NCBI GenBank assembly: GCA_039030075.1
Contig: JBCCEW010000005.1
Span: forward strand, 186,001-250,000
DNA length: 64,000 nucleotides
Direction: 5' to 3'
DNA from: Myxococcota bacterium
GTDB taxonomy: Bacteria > Myxococcota_A > UBA9160 > SMWR01
The notes beneath the pieces were generated by a model. That model was not told the DNA's origin, did not search any database, and saw only the letters and a program-made list of their open reading frames with translations. Made by a program: the position numbers and the translations under genes. Shown piece after piece: positions 3,223 through 37,849 of the stretch (position 1 is its first letter; every line of letters starts with the position of its first letter).

Positions 3223-3238
3223 GCAACACTCGTGCCAA
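3223..3238 (-). promoter_or_regulatory. Sigma-54 promoter of amtB-glnK
   Basis: Read on the minus strand the sequence is TTGGCACG-AGTG-TTGC followed by CC, matching the -24/-12 consensus at every defined position, with the obligatory GG-N10-GC spacing. Transcription would start near 3211, giving a leader of about 140 bases to the amtB ATG. Placement before an ammonium transporter/P-II operon fits known RpoN biology. Confidence 0.85.
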
Positions 3239-30336: not shown

Positions 30337-31101
30337 TCAGGACCCGGAGGCCTGGGGACCGGCTTCCTCGACGTCGGAGCGGCGGGTCGCGCCGAAGATG
30401 TACGCGACGCCCACGCCCACCAGGTAGAGCAGGACCATCGGGATGCCCAGGAAGACCTGGCTCACCCAATCCGGCGGCGTGAGGATCGCCGCGACGACGA
30501 AGACGATGACGACTGCATAGGGCGTGCCGCGCCAGAGGGTGGCGGCATCGACGATGCCCGTGATCGACAGGAAGAACACGAAGACGGGCATCTCGAAAGC
30601 GATGCCAAAGGCGAGGAAGAGGCGCGTCGTCAGCGCGAAGACCTCGCGCATCGTCCACGCGGATTGCACGAACTCGCTGTCGAAGTTCGTGAAGAAGTCG
30701 AACATCAGCGGGAACACCTGGCTGTACCCGAAGATCGCTCCGCCCACGAAGAGGAAGGTCGAGACCACCACGAACGGGACGATCGCGTTCTTCTCGCTGG
30801 GGTAGAGGCCCGGCGCGACGAAGCCCCAGATGTGCCAGAAGATCACGGGTAGGGCGAAGATGAAGCCCGCGAGCAACGCGCATTTGAGATAGGTGAAGAA
30901 GATCTCGGTGGGCGCGATCGCCTGCAGGGTGCGCTCGCCTTCGCCGAGCGCCTCGACGGCGGGTGCGAGCAGCCAAGCGAAGATCTGCTCGCTGAAGTTC
31001 CAGGCGCCCGCCGCGCCGATCACCCACGCGGCCAGGATCCAGATCAGGCGGTTGCGCAGCTCGGCGAGATGCTCCGTGATCGGAAGCTTGGTCTCATCCA
31101 T
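30337..31101 (-). CDS. tatC: Sec-independent protein translocase TatC
   Basis: A 254-residue protein with six membrane helices. It opens with PITEHLAELRNRLIW, the family signature, and contains the conserved FFTYLKCALLAGFIFALPVIFWHIWGFVAPGLYPSEK block that recognises twin-arginine signal peptides. It overlaps tatB by 8 bases. No tatA gene is in the window. Confidence 0.96.
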   Translation of the reverse strand: MDETKLPITEHLAELRNRLIWILAAWVIGAAGAWNFSEQIFAWLLAPAVEALGEGERTLQAIAPTEIFFTYLKCALLAGFIFALPVIFWHIWGFVAPGLYPSEKNAIVPFVVVSTFLFVGGAIFGYSQVFPLMFDFFTNFDSEFVQSAWTMREVFALTTRLFLAFGIAFEMPVFVFFLSITGIVDAATLWRGTPYAVVIVFVVAAILTPPDWVSQVFLGIPMVLLYLVGVGVAYIFGATRRSDVEEAGPQASGS

Positions 31102-31444
31102 CTTGGGCGGTGCCCGACGCCGGCTTCGCAGGGCTCGCCGACGCCGCTTGCGTGGATTCTGCCGGTGCCGGTTGTGCGGAGCCCGCGCTCGCCTGCGCCG
31201 CTTCGGTGCTGACCGGCCCGTCGGTGGGCGGCGGGCTGGGCGTGGCTGGTTCGAGCGGCGGCGGTTCGATTCGCGCCTCTTCCGTGACGCTCATGAACTC
31301 GCGGCGCATCTCATTCGAGGCGCGACGGAACTCCGCCATGCTCTTGCCGAGCGAACGCGCCAGTTCGGGGAGGCGCTTCGGTCCGAGCACCACCAAACCG
31401 ATCACGAACACCACCATCAGCTCGGTCATGCCGATGCCGAACAT
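31094..31444 (-). CDS. tatB: Sec-independent protein translocase TatB/TatA
   Basis: A 116-residue protein with the typical short N-terminal membrane helix (MFGIGMTELMVVFVIGLVVL), the GPKRLPELARSLGK hinge and amphipathic helix, then an Ala/Ser/Pro-rich tail. The acidic residue after MFGIGMT favours TatB over TatA. Because no separate TatA is seen here, it could serve both roles or TatA may be elsewhere. Confidence 0.88.
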   Translation of the reverse strand: MFGIGMTELMVVFVIGLVVLGPKRLPELARSLGKSMAEFRRASNEMRREFMSVTEEARIEPPPLEPATPSPPPTDGPVSTEAAQASAGSAQPAPAESTQAASASPAKPASGTAQDG

Positions 31445-31608: not shown

Positions 31609-33735
31609 TCAGACCTCCAGGGCGGCGTCGAAGCCGGCCCGGATCGCGCCGTGGATGTAGCCCACCCCGTCCGCGTCACCGATCACGCGCACCTCGGGAA
31701 CGTGCGGCGCGATCGCGTCGGCCAGCGAGCGCTTTCCCGAGACGCCGGTAGCGACCACGACCGCATCCGCAGGCCAGCGATCCGACTTCTCGTCGTGCTC
31801 GACCACTACGGCGTCCGGTTCGATCCGAACCAGCCGGGTGCGGGCCCGCAGCGTCACGCCGTGCGTGCGCAGCTCGTCGAGGATCCGCCAACGCCGGGGC
31901 ATCGCCATCTCGGGGGCGAAGTCGCGGCCCTCCTCGAGGACCGTGACTTCCCGCCCGCGTTCCGCGAGGAACTCGGCCAGCTCGAGGCCAACCAGACCGC
32001 CGCCGAGGACGGTGACCCGCTTGCCGAGGGGCATCCAGCGCTTCGAGAGTTCGCGCAGCTGGCTGGCGCTGTCGGTGACGCCGAGGGCCCGCCCGGCACG
32101 CACTGCTGCGCGCTGGGCCCAGCCGAGCTTCTGACCGGCGGCTTCGGCGCCCGCGTCGCCGGTCAACAGGCCGCGCAGGTCGTCGCCGCTGAAGACGTGG
32201 TCGCCGTCGGCCCCGGGGACGTCGGGCAGTGCGCGTTCCGCACCGGTGGCGACCAGCACGATGTCCGGTGTCTGCCCTCGAATCCATTCGGGCGTGGCTT
32301 CGGTATCGAGATGGATCGTCGAACCTGCTGCGCGTGCCTCGGCCGCGAGCCAGTTGGCGAGGCGCTCGTTCGGTTCGTAGACGAGTCCCGCAAAGAAGAG
32401 GGTGCCCCCGAGCCGGGACTGCTTCTCGCAGAGGGTCACTCGGTGTCCGCGCAGCGACGCGACGCGCGCGGCCTCGAGTCCGGCGGGCCCACCTCCGACG
32501 ACGAGCACGTGCTTGGGCTCGGCGACAGGGGTCCCGAGCCTCGGGACCACCTCGTGTTCGCGACCGGTCTCCGCGTTCACCGAGCAGATCACCGGGCGAT
32601 CGAAGAAGGCCTGGGCCACGCACTGGTAGCAATAGATGCAGGGGCGGACGCGCTCCGGGGTTCCCTCGGCCAACTTCCGCGGGAGGTCCGGGTCGGCGAG
32701 CAGCTTGCGCGCCATGGCGACGAAGTCGGCACCGCCGTCGGCGATCACCCGATCGGCCACGTCGCTCTCGACGCGCCCGACGGCGATCACCGGCACCGAT
32801 ACGCAACCCTTCACTGCCTTGGCGTAGTCGAGGTAGGCGCCCGCGCGATCGACGAGCGGTCCGTCGGTGAAGCCCGCACCACTCGTCGGGTCGGCGTAGG
32901 CGCTGACGTGAATTGCGTCGGCGCCCGCCGCTTCGGCGACCTGAGCGGTCTGCAGCGCTTCCTCGAGTTCGATCCCACCCGGGATCCGGTACTCCTTCGC
33001 GTCGATGCGACACCAGACGGCGACGCGACCCTCGGTGCGCGCCTTGATGGCCGTGATCACTTCGGCGAGCAAGCGAGAGCGCGCACCGTGGTCGCCGCCA
33101 TACGCGTCCTCGCGGAAGTTCCAGGCAGGCGACAGGAACGAGGACAGGATGTAGCCGTGCGCGGCGTGGATCTCGATGCCGTCGAAGCCCGCGCGTTCGA
33201 CGCGCGCGGCTGCGTCAGCGAAGCACTCGACCAGTTCGTCGAGGTCTTCGGGGGTGGCTTCATGGTACTCGGGCTTCTTGCCGCCGGAGGCCGCGATCAT
33301 CGCTTCGAGCTCGACGCGCGTGACCTGCCCGGCCATGTCCATCGCGCCGTGGAAGCGCGGCACCGACGGAACCAGCAGTGCGCGTCCTTCCGCCGTGTCG
33401 ACGCGCGACGTCTTCCCATGGTGGGTGAACTGCACGGCCGCCTTCGCCCCCTCGGCGTGGATCGCAGCGGCGAGCTTCGTGAGGCCCGGGAGGAAGCGGT
33501 CGTCCGAGAGCCCGATCTGCGAGGCCGCGGTCGCGCCGCGCGGATAGGCGACCGCCGAAGTCTCGAGCACGATGCAACCGGCGCCACCCCGTGCGCGCGC
33601 GGCGTAGTAGGCGATCTGGCGATCGTTGACGAAGCCACCCTCGTCGCCCAGCTCCGCTCCCATCGCGGCCATCAGGATCCGGTTCGAGAGCTCCATCGGG
33701 CCGATCCGTCCCGGCGCCATCAGGTGTTCGTGCAC
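31609..33735 (-). CDS. Old Yellow Enzyme-family oxidoreductase, 2,4-dienoyl-CoA reductase type
   Basis: A 708-residue flavo-iron-sulfur enzyme. Residues about 1-370 form an FMN-binding TIM barrel (MAAMGAELGDEGGF, GFDGIEIHAAHGY, FVAMARKLLADPDL). The linker CIYCYQC with a further Cys at PVIC supplies a 4Fe-4S site, and residues about 395-700 are a FAD/NAD(P)H module (VVGGGPAGLEAARV, VLGGGLVGLELAEF). This order matches FadH, trimethylamine dehydrogenase and bile-acid or enoate reductases. The substrate is not evident. It is a single gene, about 120 bases from the pseudo-regulator. Confidence 0.88.
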   Translation of the reverse strand: MHEHLMAPGRIGPMELSNRILMAAMGAELGDEGGFVNDRQIAYYAARARGGAGCIVLETSAVAYPRGATAASQIGLSDDRFLPGLTKLAAAIHAEGAKAAVQFTHHGKTSRVDTAEGRALLVPSVPRFHGAMDMAGQVTRVELEAMIAASGGKKPEYHEATPEDLDELVECFADAAARVERAGFDGIEIHAAHGYILSSFLSPAWNFREDAYGGDHGARSRLLAEVITAIKARTEGRVAVWCRIDAKEYRIPGGIELEEALQTAQVAEAAGADAIHVSAYADPTSGAGFTDGPLVDRAGAYLDYAKAVKGCVSVPVIAVGRVESDVADRVIADGGADFVAMARKLLADPDLPRKLAEGTPERVRPCIYCYQCVAQAFFDRPVICSVNAETGREHEVVPRLGTPVAEPKHVLVVGGGPAGLEAARVASLRGHRVTLCEKQSRLGGTLFFAGLVYEPNERLANWLAAEARAAGSTIHLDTEATPEWIRGQTPDIVLVATGAERALPDVPGADGDHVFSGDDLRGLLTGDAGAEAAGQKLGWAQRAAVRAGRALGVTDSASQLRELSKRWMPLGKRVTVLGGGLVGLELAEFLAERGREVTVLEEGRDFAPEMAMPRRWRILDELRTHGVTLRARTRLVRIEPDAVVVEHDEKSDRWPADAVVVATGVSGKRSLADAIAPHVPEVRVIGDADGVGYIHGAIRAGFDAALEV

Positions 33736-33865: not shown

Positions 33866-35821
33866 TCAGGCGGCCGGCAACTCGGCGAGCACGACGCGTT
33901 CGCCGCTCCCTCCGTCGGCGACGGCGATCCGCCCGCCGAGCTCGGTCAAGAGGTGGTCGGCCACGAGCCACCCGAGCGAGTGCTCGAGCTCGTGGCGCCC
34001 GGCTCCGCGCTCCAGCTGCGGGTCGTGGAAGCGCAGCATCACCCTCACCTGGTGGCCCTGTCGCCGCGACGCCACGTAGAGATCGCCTCGCTCGGGGACC
34101 GCCTCGAAGGCCTTCTCGATCAGGGCGTCGAAGGCGAGGCGCAGTCGGACGGCGTCGCCGCGCACGGCTTCGGCTTCCGGGTCGAGCTCCTTCAAGACGA
34201 GCAGGTCTCGGCGCCGGAAGACGCTGCGTCGCTCTTCGAGGAGCGCCTCGAGGATGGAGGTGAGGTCGACGCGCGTGGGGGTGTGCGGGGCCGGAAGCGC
34301 CGCCAGATCTTCGAGGCGTCCGAGGCCTCGCTGCATCCGCGCGACGTCGTCGATGACCGTCTCGGCGAAGCGCGAGCGGAAGTTCGGGTCGTCGAAGCGC
34401 TTCGGCAGCAGCTCCGCGAAGGTCTGCAGCGTCTTGAGCGGGTTGCGCACCTCGCCCGACAGCGCGCGGGCGAGCGCTACGAGGGGCGGTTCGGCCGCCG
34501 GGTCGGCGTCGATGGGCGTCGCCGGCGGCGGTTCTGCGATCGCTGCCGGTTCCGAATCCGCGGCACCGACCACCCAGGGGCCCGCGCCCAGTCGCGGGGC
34601 CTCGTCGGATCGCTCGACCAGGTCGGGTCGTTCCAGCCGGTTGGCGGCGGCCTCCGGCGCCGGGTCCGGCAACAGGGTGCCGACCGCGCTCGCATCGAGC
34701 GGTGCCAGGGCGATGCCGTCGAGCGAGAGGTCCGAAGCGCCCACCGGGTCGTCGTCCGTCGCCGCCAGGGTCTGGTCGATGACGGCCTCGAGCTCGCGCA
34801 GGTTGCCCGGCCACGGGTACTCCTGGAGAACGGTCAGGGCGTCGGCGCCCAGTGCGCGCGGCGGCACGCGACGCGCTTTGCAAAAGGCCTCCACGGCCGC
34901 GTGGGCCCAGGTCGCGATGCGTTCGGGGTGCTCGCGGACCGTCGGGACGCGGAGCTCGAGGGTGCCGAGGGCCTGGGCGAGGGTGGGCTCGAGGGCGGGT
35001 CCGGTCTCGTCGAAGCTCGCCACCCAGCGCACGGCGCTCCGGACACCGCGGGGGCGCGTCTGCTCGACCCAACCGGCGAGTTCGCGCTGCACCGCGGGTT
35101 GCAGCCGGCCGACATCGTCGAGCCAGCAACACACGCGCCGGGCCCCGGGGTCGTCTGCGGCGAAACTGCGTAGCCGTTCGGCCAGCTGCTCGAGGCGCGT
35201 CGTTTCGGAGCACGGGCAATGGAGCCACGCCCCGTCGGAGGTCCCACCGAAATGGTGGACGTACTGCAGCAGGGCGCCGCGGCCACTGCCCGGTTCACCG
35301 CGTACCAGCAGGGGGACGCCGGCGAGACGCGGGTCGAGGGCGCGCAGCAGCTCCGGCGGTCCCTCGCCGAACCAGCGCCGAAAGCGCGCCGCGACCGCGT
35401 CGCGCTCGGCCCGTTGGGAAAGGGAAGGCAGCGGCGCCGGAGGCGTCTGCAGCTGCTCGCGCAGGCGCGCCGGGTGCGGCGGGTACGCGAGGAACGTGAC
35501 GGGTAGTTGATCGAACAGGGTTTCGACCCAGGGCGCGGCCTCGGGTGCGCCGACGACGATCCACTGCGCTCCGACGAGGCGTGCGCGCTGCCGGTGCACG
35601 AACTCGAGCTCGGGCTCCCAGTTGGGGGACGCCGCGACCTCCGAAGACCCTCTGCCCTGGCCGGGCACTCCCGTCACGCCCAACACGACGGTCTGGGGCG
35701 GTGCGGCTTCGTCGAAGACGGCGTCTCCCGGCGCGCCCAGCACGGCGGGCTCCTCACCCGCGAGGCGGGCGAGCGCTTGCCGTTCACGATCGGCGCGATG
35801 AACGATCCAGAGGGAGGGCAT
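33866..35821 (-). CDS. Degenerate receiver / NtrC-like AAA+ / histidine-kinase-like fusion
   Basis: A 651-residue protein with three recognisable but altered modules. Residues 1-125 resemble a receiver without the phosphoacceptor (strand TVVLGVTG where D is expected). Residues 140-350 are NtrC-like: Walker A GEPGSGRGA (175-183, Arg for Lys), Walker B CCWLDDVGRL (231-240) and YPWPGNLREL (335-344), but no GAFTGA sigma-54 contact loop. Residues 450-510 look like a HisKA helix pair with SGEVRNPL (455-462), Gly replacing the phosphohistidine, and 515-651 is an eroded HATPase domain. A consensus sigma-54 promoter precedes it. It probably acts by binding, not phosphotransfer. Confidence 0.75.
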   Translation of the reverse strand: MPSLWIVHRADRERQALARLAGEEPAVLGAPGDAVFDEAAPPQTVVLGVTGVPGQGRGSSEVAASPNWEPELEFVHRQRARLVGAQWIVVGAPEAAPWVETLFDQLPVTFLAYPPHPARLREQLQTPPAPLPSLSQRAERDAVAARFRRWFGEGPPELLRALDPRLAGVPLLVRGEPGSGRGALLQYVHHFGGTSDGAWLHCPCSETTRLEQLAERLRSFAADDPGARRVCCWLDDVGRLQPAVQRELAGWVEQTRPRGVRSAVRWVASFDETGPALEPTLAQALGTLELRVPTVREHPERIATWAHAAVEAFCKARRVPPRALGADALTVLQEYPWPGNLRELEAVIDQTLAATDDDPVGASDLSLDGIALAPLDASAVGTLLPDPAPEAAANRLERPDLVERSDEAPRLGAGPWVVGAADSEPAAIAEPPPATPIDADPAAEPPLVALARALSGEVRNPLKTLQTFAELLPKRFDDPNFRSRFAETVIDDVARMQRGLGRLEDLAALPAPHTPTRVDLTSILEALLEERRSVFRRRDLLVLKELDPEAEAVRGDAVRLRLAFDALIEKAFEAVPERGDLYVASRRQGHQVRVMLRFHDPQLERGAGRHELEHSLGWLVADHLLTELGGRIAVADGGSGERVVLAELPAA

Positions 35822-36313
35822 GAAGGTCCACGGAGATTGAAAAATTCTACGGTTCCTGGCGCAAGCCCCGTGCCAAGCTGACGGAGTCCTTCTCGAGCCG
35901 GCAACACCGCGCAGAAGGCGTTGCGGCGGCGGTCGAAAGCCGTTCCCCTGGAAAGCCCCTTCCCGTCGGGGGAGACGCGTCTGGGTCGACCCTCGGGCGC
36001 CGCGATTTGGGAAAAGGATTTCCCTCGCGACCCTCTGGGATCTCTGCCAGAGTGAAGCCTCGCTCTGAATCCGGGGGTGGCTCGGGGCGTCCGACGCGAG
36101 GTTCCGCACGGTGCATCGCTCCTGCGCGACGCACGCGACGTGGCCGCTCGTCGGCGGACGCACGGTAGGTCGCCGCATGCTCTGGAGTTCGGAGCACTGG
36201 GGAACGCGGAGCGATCTGGAAAGAGCGGTCTCGAAGGCGTAACGCTCCGGAGGTGGAGCAACCCGGCGTCGCGGGTGGCGCCGGCCGAGAGACGAACCGG
36301 CAGGAGGGGTGCG
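35822..36313. other. Divergent region between the pseudo-regulator and the ThyX-like gene
   Basis: These 492 bases hold the minus-strand sigma-54 promoter at 35861-35876 and a short AT-rich patch (about 35834-35850) at its predicted start. Between 35880 and 36300 I see no gene, promoter or terminator that I can support. A good ribosome binding site for the next gene (AGGAGG) is at 36302-36307. Confidence 0.6.
35861..35876 (-). promoter_or_regulatory. Sigma-54 promoter of the pseudo-regulator gene
   Basis: On the minus strand: TTGGCACG-GGGC-TTGC, every defined -24/-12 position matched and GG-N10-GC exact. Transcription should begin near 35849, 28 bases before the ATG at 35821. The only departure from consensus is the base after TTGC (G instead of A/T). 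Confidence 0.85.
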
Positions 36314-37849
36314 GTGGCGGTGATCGATGCGGGCCCGCGGGTGCAGTTGCGCCACGCGACGGACGAGCCCTACGACGACGCGATCGCCGCGGCACGCACC
36401 TGCTACTCGCCGCGCGTCGTCTCTCCCGCGGAGATCACCGAGCAGCAGCGCCGCAACATCGGCCCGCTGACCTACGGCGGCGGACACCATACGGTGTTCC
36501 AACACGCGACCTTCGAGTTCGAGCTGTCCGGGATCTCGCGGCAGCTCGTCTGGTCGATGCTCCACGGCTTTCCCTTCTACAACACCGAGCAACAGAGCCA
36601 GCGCTACGTGAAACTGGGCGAGGCCGAGGCTCACGTGCCGCGCGGGCTCGACCCCGAGGCCCGTCAGCTCTACGAAGCCTCGATCGAGCGCGCCTGGCAG
36701 GCCTACCGCGACCTCACCGACCAGCTCAAGCCGCGGACCCGCGAGATCCTCGGCGATCTCTGGCGCCTCGACGCCCGCGCCAATCGCGCCTTCGGCAAGA
36801 ACGTGGCCCGCGAGGCCGAGAAGAAGGCGATCGAGACGGCGCGCTACGTGATCCCGATCGCCTGCCACACGGCGATGGTCTACACGATCTCCGGACTCGT
36901 CCTGCACCGCTTGCGACGCATGTCGCGCGTGGGCGACGTGCCCGTCGAAGCGGTCGATGTCATCGACCGCATGGTCTATTGCGTCGAGCAGCTCGACCCG
37001 AGCTTCTTCGGACGCGTCGGCGACGCGCCGCTCACCGAGAGCGAGATCCTCGAGACGGAATGGGCGCCCGCCGGTGTGGGCGACCCGGTCGCGATCGAGG
37101 CCTTCGACAAGTCCCTCGACGGACGGACCTCGCGCTTGATCGATTGGAGTGCGCGCGCCCCCGAGGTAGTGGCCGACGCGATTCGCCACGTCGTGGGAAA
37201 GAGCGATCTCGACGATGCGGATGCGCTGGCCCTGGCGCTGGACCCGCGGGTCAATCGCTACCGCGTGGAGCGCCTCAACGTCTCGACCCACGCGCCGGCG
37301 ATGCGCGCCCTGGCCCACGCCCACTACGTGTTCCGCAAGAAGCTCTCGCATACGGCCGACTCCCAGGACCAGCGTCACCGCACGGTGCCCGGGTCGCGCC
37401 CGCTGCTCTCGCGCACCGTGCCGCTCATGCCCGACGTGATCGAGCCCGATCTGATCCGCGACGACCCGGTGAGCCACCAGCTCTTCGAAGACACGGTCGC
37501 CGCCCAGTGGGAGGCGCGCGCGGCCTTGCTCGACCGGGGCGTGTCCGCGGAGCAGGCGCTCTACGTCCTGCCGAACGCGCTGGCCGTGCGCTTCGAGGAG
37601 TCGGGCACCCTGCTCGACCTGATCCACAAGTGGACGATGCGCAGTTGCCTGAATGCGCAGAGCGAGATCTGGCAGGCGTCGATGGACGAGATCGAGCAGG
37701 TGCGCGGGGTCCATCCCAGCCTGATGGACCACGTCGGGCCTCCGTGTGTGGTGCGCAACGGGCACGCCCGGCCGCGCTGTACCGAGGGCTCCCACTTCTG
37801 CGGCGTGCCGGTCTGGCGCGACTTCCCGAACGTGGAGCGCGTGCTCTGA
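36314..37849 (+). CDS. Tandem ThyX-like protein (FAD-dependent thymidylate synthase family)
   Basis: A 511-residue protein made of two ThyX-like halves. The first (about 40-250) has the FEFELSGISRQLVW and EQQSQRYV parts of the fold but lacks the RHR motif. The second (about 315-505) has QDQRHRTVPGSRP in place of the canonical RHR-x7-S-x-R and an ALYVLPNALAVRF / SCLNAQSEIW segment like ThyX LPLNLYT...NLR. Canonical ThyX is about 220-250 residues and methylates dUMP using FAD. With one motif gone and the other altered, activity is uncertain. The GTG at 36314 follows AGGAGG by six bases. Confidence 0.75.
   Translation: MAVIDAGPRVQLRHATDEPYDDAIAAARTCYSPRVVSPAEITEQQRRNIGPLTYGGGHHTVFQHATFEFELSGISRQLVWSMLHGFPFYNTEQQSQRYVKLGEAEAHVPRGLDPEARQLYEASIERAWQAYRDLTDQLKPRTREILGDLWRLDARANRAFGKNVAREAEKKAIETARYVIPIACHTAMVYTISGLVLHRLRRMSRVGDVPVEAVDVIDRMVYCVEQLDPSFFGRVGDAPLTESEILETEWAPAGVGDPVAIEAFDKSLDGRTSRLIDWSARAPEVVADAIRHVVGKSDLDDADALALALDPRVNRYRVERLNVSTHAPAMRALAHAHYVFRKKLSHTADSQDQRHRTVPGSRPLLSRTVPLMPDVIEPDLIRDDPVSHQLFEDTVAAQWEARAALLDRGVSAEQALYVLPNALAVRFEESGTLLDLIHKWTMRSCLNAQSEIWQASMDEIEQVRGVHPSLMDHVGPPCVVRNGHARPRCTEGSHFCGVPVWRDFPNVERVL

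Follow-up and report, generated by a model that had tools for sequence, protein, structure and literature searches.

A gene in the window, the whole 64,000-nt stretch of Myxococcota DNA that was analysed, encodes a genuine fusion of an NtrC-like and an NtrB-like protein, as an earlier note on this DNA had proposed; Pfam, AlphaFold, Foldseek and hhalign agreed on this. Judging from the sequences of relatives, the losses in its receiver, AAA+ domain and ATP site are ancestral, while the loss of its phospho-acceptor His is not. We consider the chances about even that the protein is a conserved non-catalytic adaptor of a sigma-54/PEP-CTERM regulon, whose kinase half served the NtrC-type activator c0 and whose receiver-AAA half is independent of c0.

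The fusion ORF runs on the minus strand from an ATG at 35821 to a stop at 33866, without internal stop codons (Table 1). The start codon was backed by alignment, orthologs opening with MxxLWIVHRD. Pfam profile searches with the protein gave matches above cut-off to AAA_lid_14 (PF25601, 43.5 bits) and HisKA (PF00512, 28.2 bits) and a match below cut-off to Sigma54_activ_2; no match was obtained to the receiver or HATPase_c profiles. An AlphaFold model with 42 orthologs as input (pLDDT 86.3) showed, in order, a receiver-like domain, an AAA+ domain, a disordered linker, a DHp and a CA-like domain. When searched against the PDB with Foldseek, the N-terminal half matched NtrC1, NtrX, VpsR, LuxO and FleQ, and the C-terminal half ZraS, DivL, RetS and GacS. 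Residues 1-366 were aligned by hhalign to c0, a true NtrC-type bEBP, with 99.5% probability.

Table 1. Positions in the window of the fusion gene, its domains, its promoter elements and the neighbouring genes
Feature	Positions	Strand	Basis or remark
Pseudo-REC / pseudo-NtrC AAA+ / pseudo-NtrB fusion gene	33866..35821	-	651 aa + stop; ORF, Pfam, AlphaFold, orthologs
Receiver-like domain, aa 1-125	35447..35821	-	Alignment, hhalign to c0, model
NtrC-type AAA+ domain with lid, aa 131-372	34706..35431	-	Pfam, alignment, hhalign
Disordered linker, aa 383-438	34508..34675	-	pLDDT < 50
DHp (HisKA) helices, aa 446-507	34301..34486	-	Pfam, alignment, model
CA-like domain, aa 512-651	33869..34288	-	Alignment to ZraS/KinB; HATPase_c null in 42 members
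Sigma-54 -24/-12 promoter TTGGCACGGGGCTTGC	35861-35876	-	40 nt upstream of fusion-gene start
Palindrome A, enhancer-like, GGGAAA-N4-TTTCCC	36009..36024	-	Only exact GGGAAAN4TTTCCCA copy in genome
Palindrome B ACTCTGGCAGAGA	36041..36053	-	Also in a subset of ortholog promoters
FMN/FAD oxidoreductase (OYE type)	31609..33735	-	Fills slot of relatives' c0, REC-HD-GYP, PilZ
TatA/B-like gene, conserved neighbour	31094..31444	-	Putative, named by sequence and position
tatC, conserved neighbour	30337..31101	-	Putative, named by sequence
Divergent thyX, conserved upstream neighbour	36314..37849	+	Putative, named by sequence

Residue losses were scored in an alignment of 50 orthologs from the order. In the receiver, the acidic pair has given way, in most cases to a conserved WIVHRD, and neither the phospho-Asp nor the Lys remains; the window protein has VHRAD at the acidic pair and G at the phospho-Asp position. 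The Walker A Lys was changed to Arg in 47/50 orthologs, and the Walker A of the window protein reads GEPGSGRG. All aligned orthologs had a deletion of the GAFTGA segment, i.e. the sigma-54 contact loop is missing, and the arginine fingers were lost with the replacement of the FRxDLYxR segment. The lid motif, which the earlier note had reported as YPWPGNLREL, was retained in the window protein as YPWPGNLRELE and mostly retained across the orthologs. A Fis-type HTH was found in the fusion protein neither by Pfam nor in the model; the DHp-CA region stands there instead. Alignment of the CA-like half to ZraS and KinB showed that it lacks the N-box Asn, G1 and G2, a loss that is family-wide, and HATPase_c (PF02518) gave no match in 42 family members.

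The phospho-acceptor position of the window protein is Gly456 (codon 34454-34456), and SGEVRNPL replaces HExxN. Nearly all family members have His at position 456, the Gly being a lineage-specific change, and HExxN is intact in the c0-bearing orthologs. A DHp His together with a degenerate CA domain is seen in most relatives, not in the window protein. The losses listed in the earlier note (receiver Asp, Arg in Walker A, no GAFTGA, Gly for the phospho-His) were all seen in the window protein, yet its treatment of them as one package failed: His was intact in 57/57 orthologs with c0 and lost mainly where c0 is absent, the other losses being ancestral. Relatives were checked for conservation of the losses, as the note had suggested, and the receiver, AAA+ and ATP-site losses proved to be shared and not fresh decay. 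Nearby homologues with intact catalytic residues, which the note had named as a sign of recent decay, were found for the His only.

Of the 80 genomes of the order, 73 carried an ortholog of the fusion gene, as did 9/11 genomes of the sister order, so the gene is not a local relic. Conservation across relatives ruled out a chance ORF or a chance promoter, and one-step decay in the window's species was ruled out for every loss except that of His. Most of the genomes compared were draft assemblies, and gene calls other than that of the fusion gene came from a simple codon model. A search of further genome contigs, swamped by generic bEBPs, gave a single ortholog, in a 'Deltaproteobacteria bacterium' MAG. 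Of the 9 sister-order orthologs, 8 had a changed H-box His and all 9 a changed Asn in HExxN; the sister order yielded no c0 ortholog. Between the fusion gene and tatA/B, it has a conserved gene for a protein of ~160 aa that matches nothing in Pfam.

Synteny was very stable in the order, with the divergent thyX on one side of the fusion gene and c0, REC-HD-GYP, PilZ, TatA/B and TatC on the other; many relatives showed the operon order fusion gene, c0, REC-HD-GYP, PilZ, TatB, TatC. The c0 gene encodes a full receiver-AAA-Fis activator of the AtoC/NtrC-type bEBP class, with canonical receiver residues, GESGTGKE and FRxDLY, and two canonical receivers (c0 and REC-HD-GYP) lie downstream of the fusion gene in the operon of the relatives. 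About two thirds of the c0 copies (roughly 26/40) carried GAFTDA rather than GAFTGA. The PilZ and HD-GYP neighbours suggest a putative c-di-GMP link. In the window's species the c0, HD-GYP and PilZ genes are missing between the fusion gene and tat. Relocation of c0 within this genome was rejected, the best match being at paralog level (47% identity, 406 bits; true orthologs have at least 522 bits). Orthologs of c0 were found in 59-60 of the 80 genomes, always alongside the fusion gene, and all 7 genomes without the fusion gene also lacked c0. At one locus (G025:C71:50895-52227) c0 was broken by a frameshift or stop beside an intact, His-bearing ortholog, which might be a fresh loss or an assembly error.

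Presence of the phospho-His tracked presence of c0. In a table of 73 rows of known c0 state (4 orthologs with a contig end or a broken c0 frame were left out), 57 had both c0 and His, none had c0 without His, 13 had neither, and 3 (two species in the order, one in the sister order) had kept His without c0. A tree made with the receiver and AAA columns showed 6 changes of c0 and 7 of His. The c0-less lineages of the order made up 13.6% of the branch length and carried 5/5 His losses (4.6e-5 under a simple within-order model in which His losses fall at random along branches). A phylogenetically strict pairs test gave 5 well-supported independent pairs, which showed the same direction or no difference and never the opposite (p 0.06-0.25, a value limited by the small number of pairs). 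Terminal branches were summed for lineages with and without c0; the ratio of c0-less to c0-bearing was 0.23 for the receiver, 0.21 for AAA+, 0.56 for DHp and 0.35 for CA. Once c0 is lost, constraint is thus relaxed on the transmitter half, most strongly on DHp, but not on the receiver-AAA half. The joint loss of His and c0 could instead reflect the loss of a third partner.

The promoter element TTGGCACGGGGCTTGC has GG at -24 and GC at -12 at the exact spacing (GG-N10-GC). The earlier note had called it a perfect sigma-54 match; the site is real and conserved, but G stands, not A/T, at the final consensus position (W), which directly follows TTGGCACGGGGCTTGC. A single sigma-54 match in 64 kb is weak taken alone. 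The pattern TGGCAY-N5-TTGC was, however, present 38-185 nt before the start in 59/69 orthologs of the order against a shuffled expectation of 0, and the site is therefore not due to chance. A palindrome, TGGGAAA-N4-TTTCCCA, lies ~145 nt upstream of the -24 element, and its position clustered at -134 to -179. With at most 2 mismatches it was found in 16/61 promoters against 0 in shuffles, and with at most 4 mismatches in 50/61 against 4.4. A second palindrome, ACTCTGNCAGAGT, occurred in a subset of the ortholog promoters, and the window promoter holds both, with 1 mismatch each. The promoter and both palindromes persist without c0; the activator must therefore be another bEBP. No Rfam elements were found in the 33-37 kb region.

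The palindrome followed by a sigma-54 site 106-136 nt downstream gave 31 matches in 23/80 genomes and 0 in the reversed control. By contig and position, 17/31 matches precede the fusion gene, one of these (G016:C164) being assigned by site similarity to close relatives. Among the other 14, 9 lie before proteins that carry an N-terminal signal and end in a PEP-CTERM-like tail, read as (V/I/L)PEPG...LLLxGxxGL, 3 before exported repeat proteins truncated at contig ends, 1 before amtB (with a poor palindrome) and 1 before no clear gene. The window's own genome has the pattern at C3:8105-8256, before a PEP-CTERM (PepA-like) protein. The PEP-CTERM profile TIGR02595 scored above cut-off in 4/6 target proteins tested, including the one of this genome; the remaining PEP-CTERM calls rest on the C-terminal motif as judged by eye. 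A sigma-54 site and palindrome with one mismatch were also seen at C38:43379 of the same genome, before the gene of an exported protein that runs off the contig. The palindrome was not found at the promoters of amtB or of two NrtA-like (nitrate-type transporter) genes of this genome. PEP-CTERM genes preceded by an activator motif and a sigma-54 motif were described by Haft et al. (PMC1569441), together with the PrsK/PrsR pair. PrsR (TIGR02915) was rejected as the activator here, as it scored above cut-off in only 1/80 genomes and its best match in the window's genome reached 416 bits against a cut-off of 502.6.

We propose that the fusion of an NtrC-family activator (receiver and AAA+) with an NtrB-like transmitter (DHp and dead ATP domain) would act as a signalling adaptor. 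Its gene would be transcribed from the sigma-54 promoter with a palindrome common to PEP-CTERM surface/matrix genes, so that the protein would be made while the PEP-CTERM regulon is active. The DHp His, which the protein's own ATP domain cannot phosphorylate, would in most relatives work on the c0 receiver by phosphotransfer, as a phosphatase or as a docking platform. The receiver-like/AAA+ half would have another task that does not depend on c0, most probably protein-protein docking with a further signalling or AAA+ protein. Only a docking or scaffold role under the same promoter would be left in the window's species, where c0 is gone and the His has decayed to Gly. The sequences themselves show the family's conservation and losses, the promoter with its palindrome, the synteny, the joint loss of c0 and His and the rate change by domain; we infer that the protein works biochemically with c0, that it docks onto a partner and that it feeds back on the PEP-CTERM genes.

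The adaptor reading has to be weighed against a phosphotransfer hub of the ChpT/Spo0B kind, which in relatives would relay phosphate to c0, to REC-HD-GYP or to both from a kinase elsewhere in the cell, and of which the window's species would keep a remnant. The intact HExxN beside a lost N-box, G1 and G2 in c0-bearing orthologs, and the two canonical receivers next in the operon, speak for such a hub. HExxN can just as well be read, however, as the HisKA phosphatase motif, and a pure phosphotransferase leaves unexplained why constraint on the receiver-AAA half is unchanged after loss of c0 and His; we regard the hub as rather unlikely, though it is the strongest of the rivals. Decay of the fusion gene towards a pseudogene in the window's species after c0 loss is improbable. 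The neighbours c0, HD-GYP and PilZ and the phospho-His are indeed lost, and the CA domain is fast (1.14 against 0.50 for AAA+), but the 651-codon frame is intact, the start, the sigma-54 site and both palindromes are conserved, receiver and AAA+ are not accelerated, and sister-order lineages keep the fusion gene without c0.

The scaffold or feedback role offered in the earlier note fits these data; the link that it drew to nitrogen control is not supported by them. A decoy damping the true NtrB/NtrC system of the cell, possibly via P-II, would agree with the NtrC- and NtrB-like folds, the sigma-54 promoter and an amtB gene in the same window. The enhancer-like element is, however, the one common to PEP-CTERM genes and missing at the amtB and nitrate-type promoters, and the conserved partner is a bEBP beside HD-GYP, PilZ and Tat genes and not glnA or glnB, which makes the decoy very unlikely. 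Equally hard to credit, if not slightly more so, is an autoregulated two-gene operon in which c0 activates the fusion promoter. A full NtrC-type bEBP with a Fis HTH next door would suit this role, but c0 was ruled out as activator by the retention of promoter and palindrome in c0-less lineages, the window included.

Compared with NtrC-family bEBPs (NtrC1 1ny5, NtrX 5m7p, VpsR 7v2b, FleQ), the fusion protein shares the receiver, AAA+ and lid fold in the same order and the YPWPGN(L)REL lid, but lacks GAFTGA, the Walker Lys, the arginine fingers, the phospho-acceptor Asp and the HTH, a transmitter replacing the DNA-binding domain. In the phosphotransferases ChpT and Spo0B a DHp His is combined with a CA-like domain unable to bind ATP. 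The fusion family resembles them in this combination, but keeps a recognisable HisKA fused to a pseudo-NtrC, and neither was among the structural or profile matches listed for the fusion protein. RetS, a membrane sensor with receiver domains, was among the best structural matches (6dk7, 7n0e) and is alike in having an HK-like region that acts on another two-component system; its partner class differs. The Caulobacter pseudo-kinase DivL (4q20) matched in structure and profile by its non-catalytic HK-like DHp+CA fold, and its acceptor is non-His, as in the window protein. DivL has a Tyr at this position and PAS sensors, whereas the N-terminus of the fusion protein is a dead NtrC and most fusion orthologs keep the His. 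A dead transmitter such as that of DivL can read the state of a receiver (PMC4211667). The PrsK/PrsR system (PMC1569441) is similar in its sigma-54 promoters and upstream activator motif at PEP-CTERM genes, but the upstream motif is different and the spacing is longer at fusion-family promoters.

The protein may, tentatively, represent a new class of signalling protein, a fused NtrC/NtrB pair stripped of all catalysis and serving as a scaffold that ties sigma-54/PEP-CTERM control to the bEBP next door and to c-di-GMP enzymes, its last catalytic residue being kept only alongside the bEBP. Pseudo-kinases and pseudo-receivers are known singly, as in DivL, RetS and ChpT; to our knowledge, no conserved protein has been described in which a dead enhancer-binding protein and a dead transmitter are joined. 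The six c0 changes on the tree form a natural experiment in which the phospho-His tracks c0 and the receiver-AAA half does not, separating two functions of one protein and making the roles of a dead AAA+ domain and a dead transmitter directly testable. A candidate PEP-CTERM/sigma-54 enhancer element is also defined in a group mostly without a recognisable PrsR.

Further sigma-54 sites were noted. A second exact site lies at 3223-3237 (-) of the window, upstream of an amtB-type ammonium transporter gene. TTGGCAY-N5-TTGC sites numbered 6 in the window's genome, three of them at amtB and the genes of two NrtA-like binding proteins. The sigma-54 sites of another genome (G021) included those of a type IV pilin gene and an amtB-like gene.
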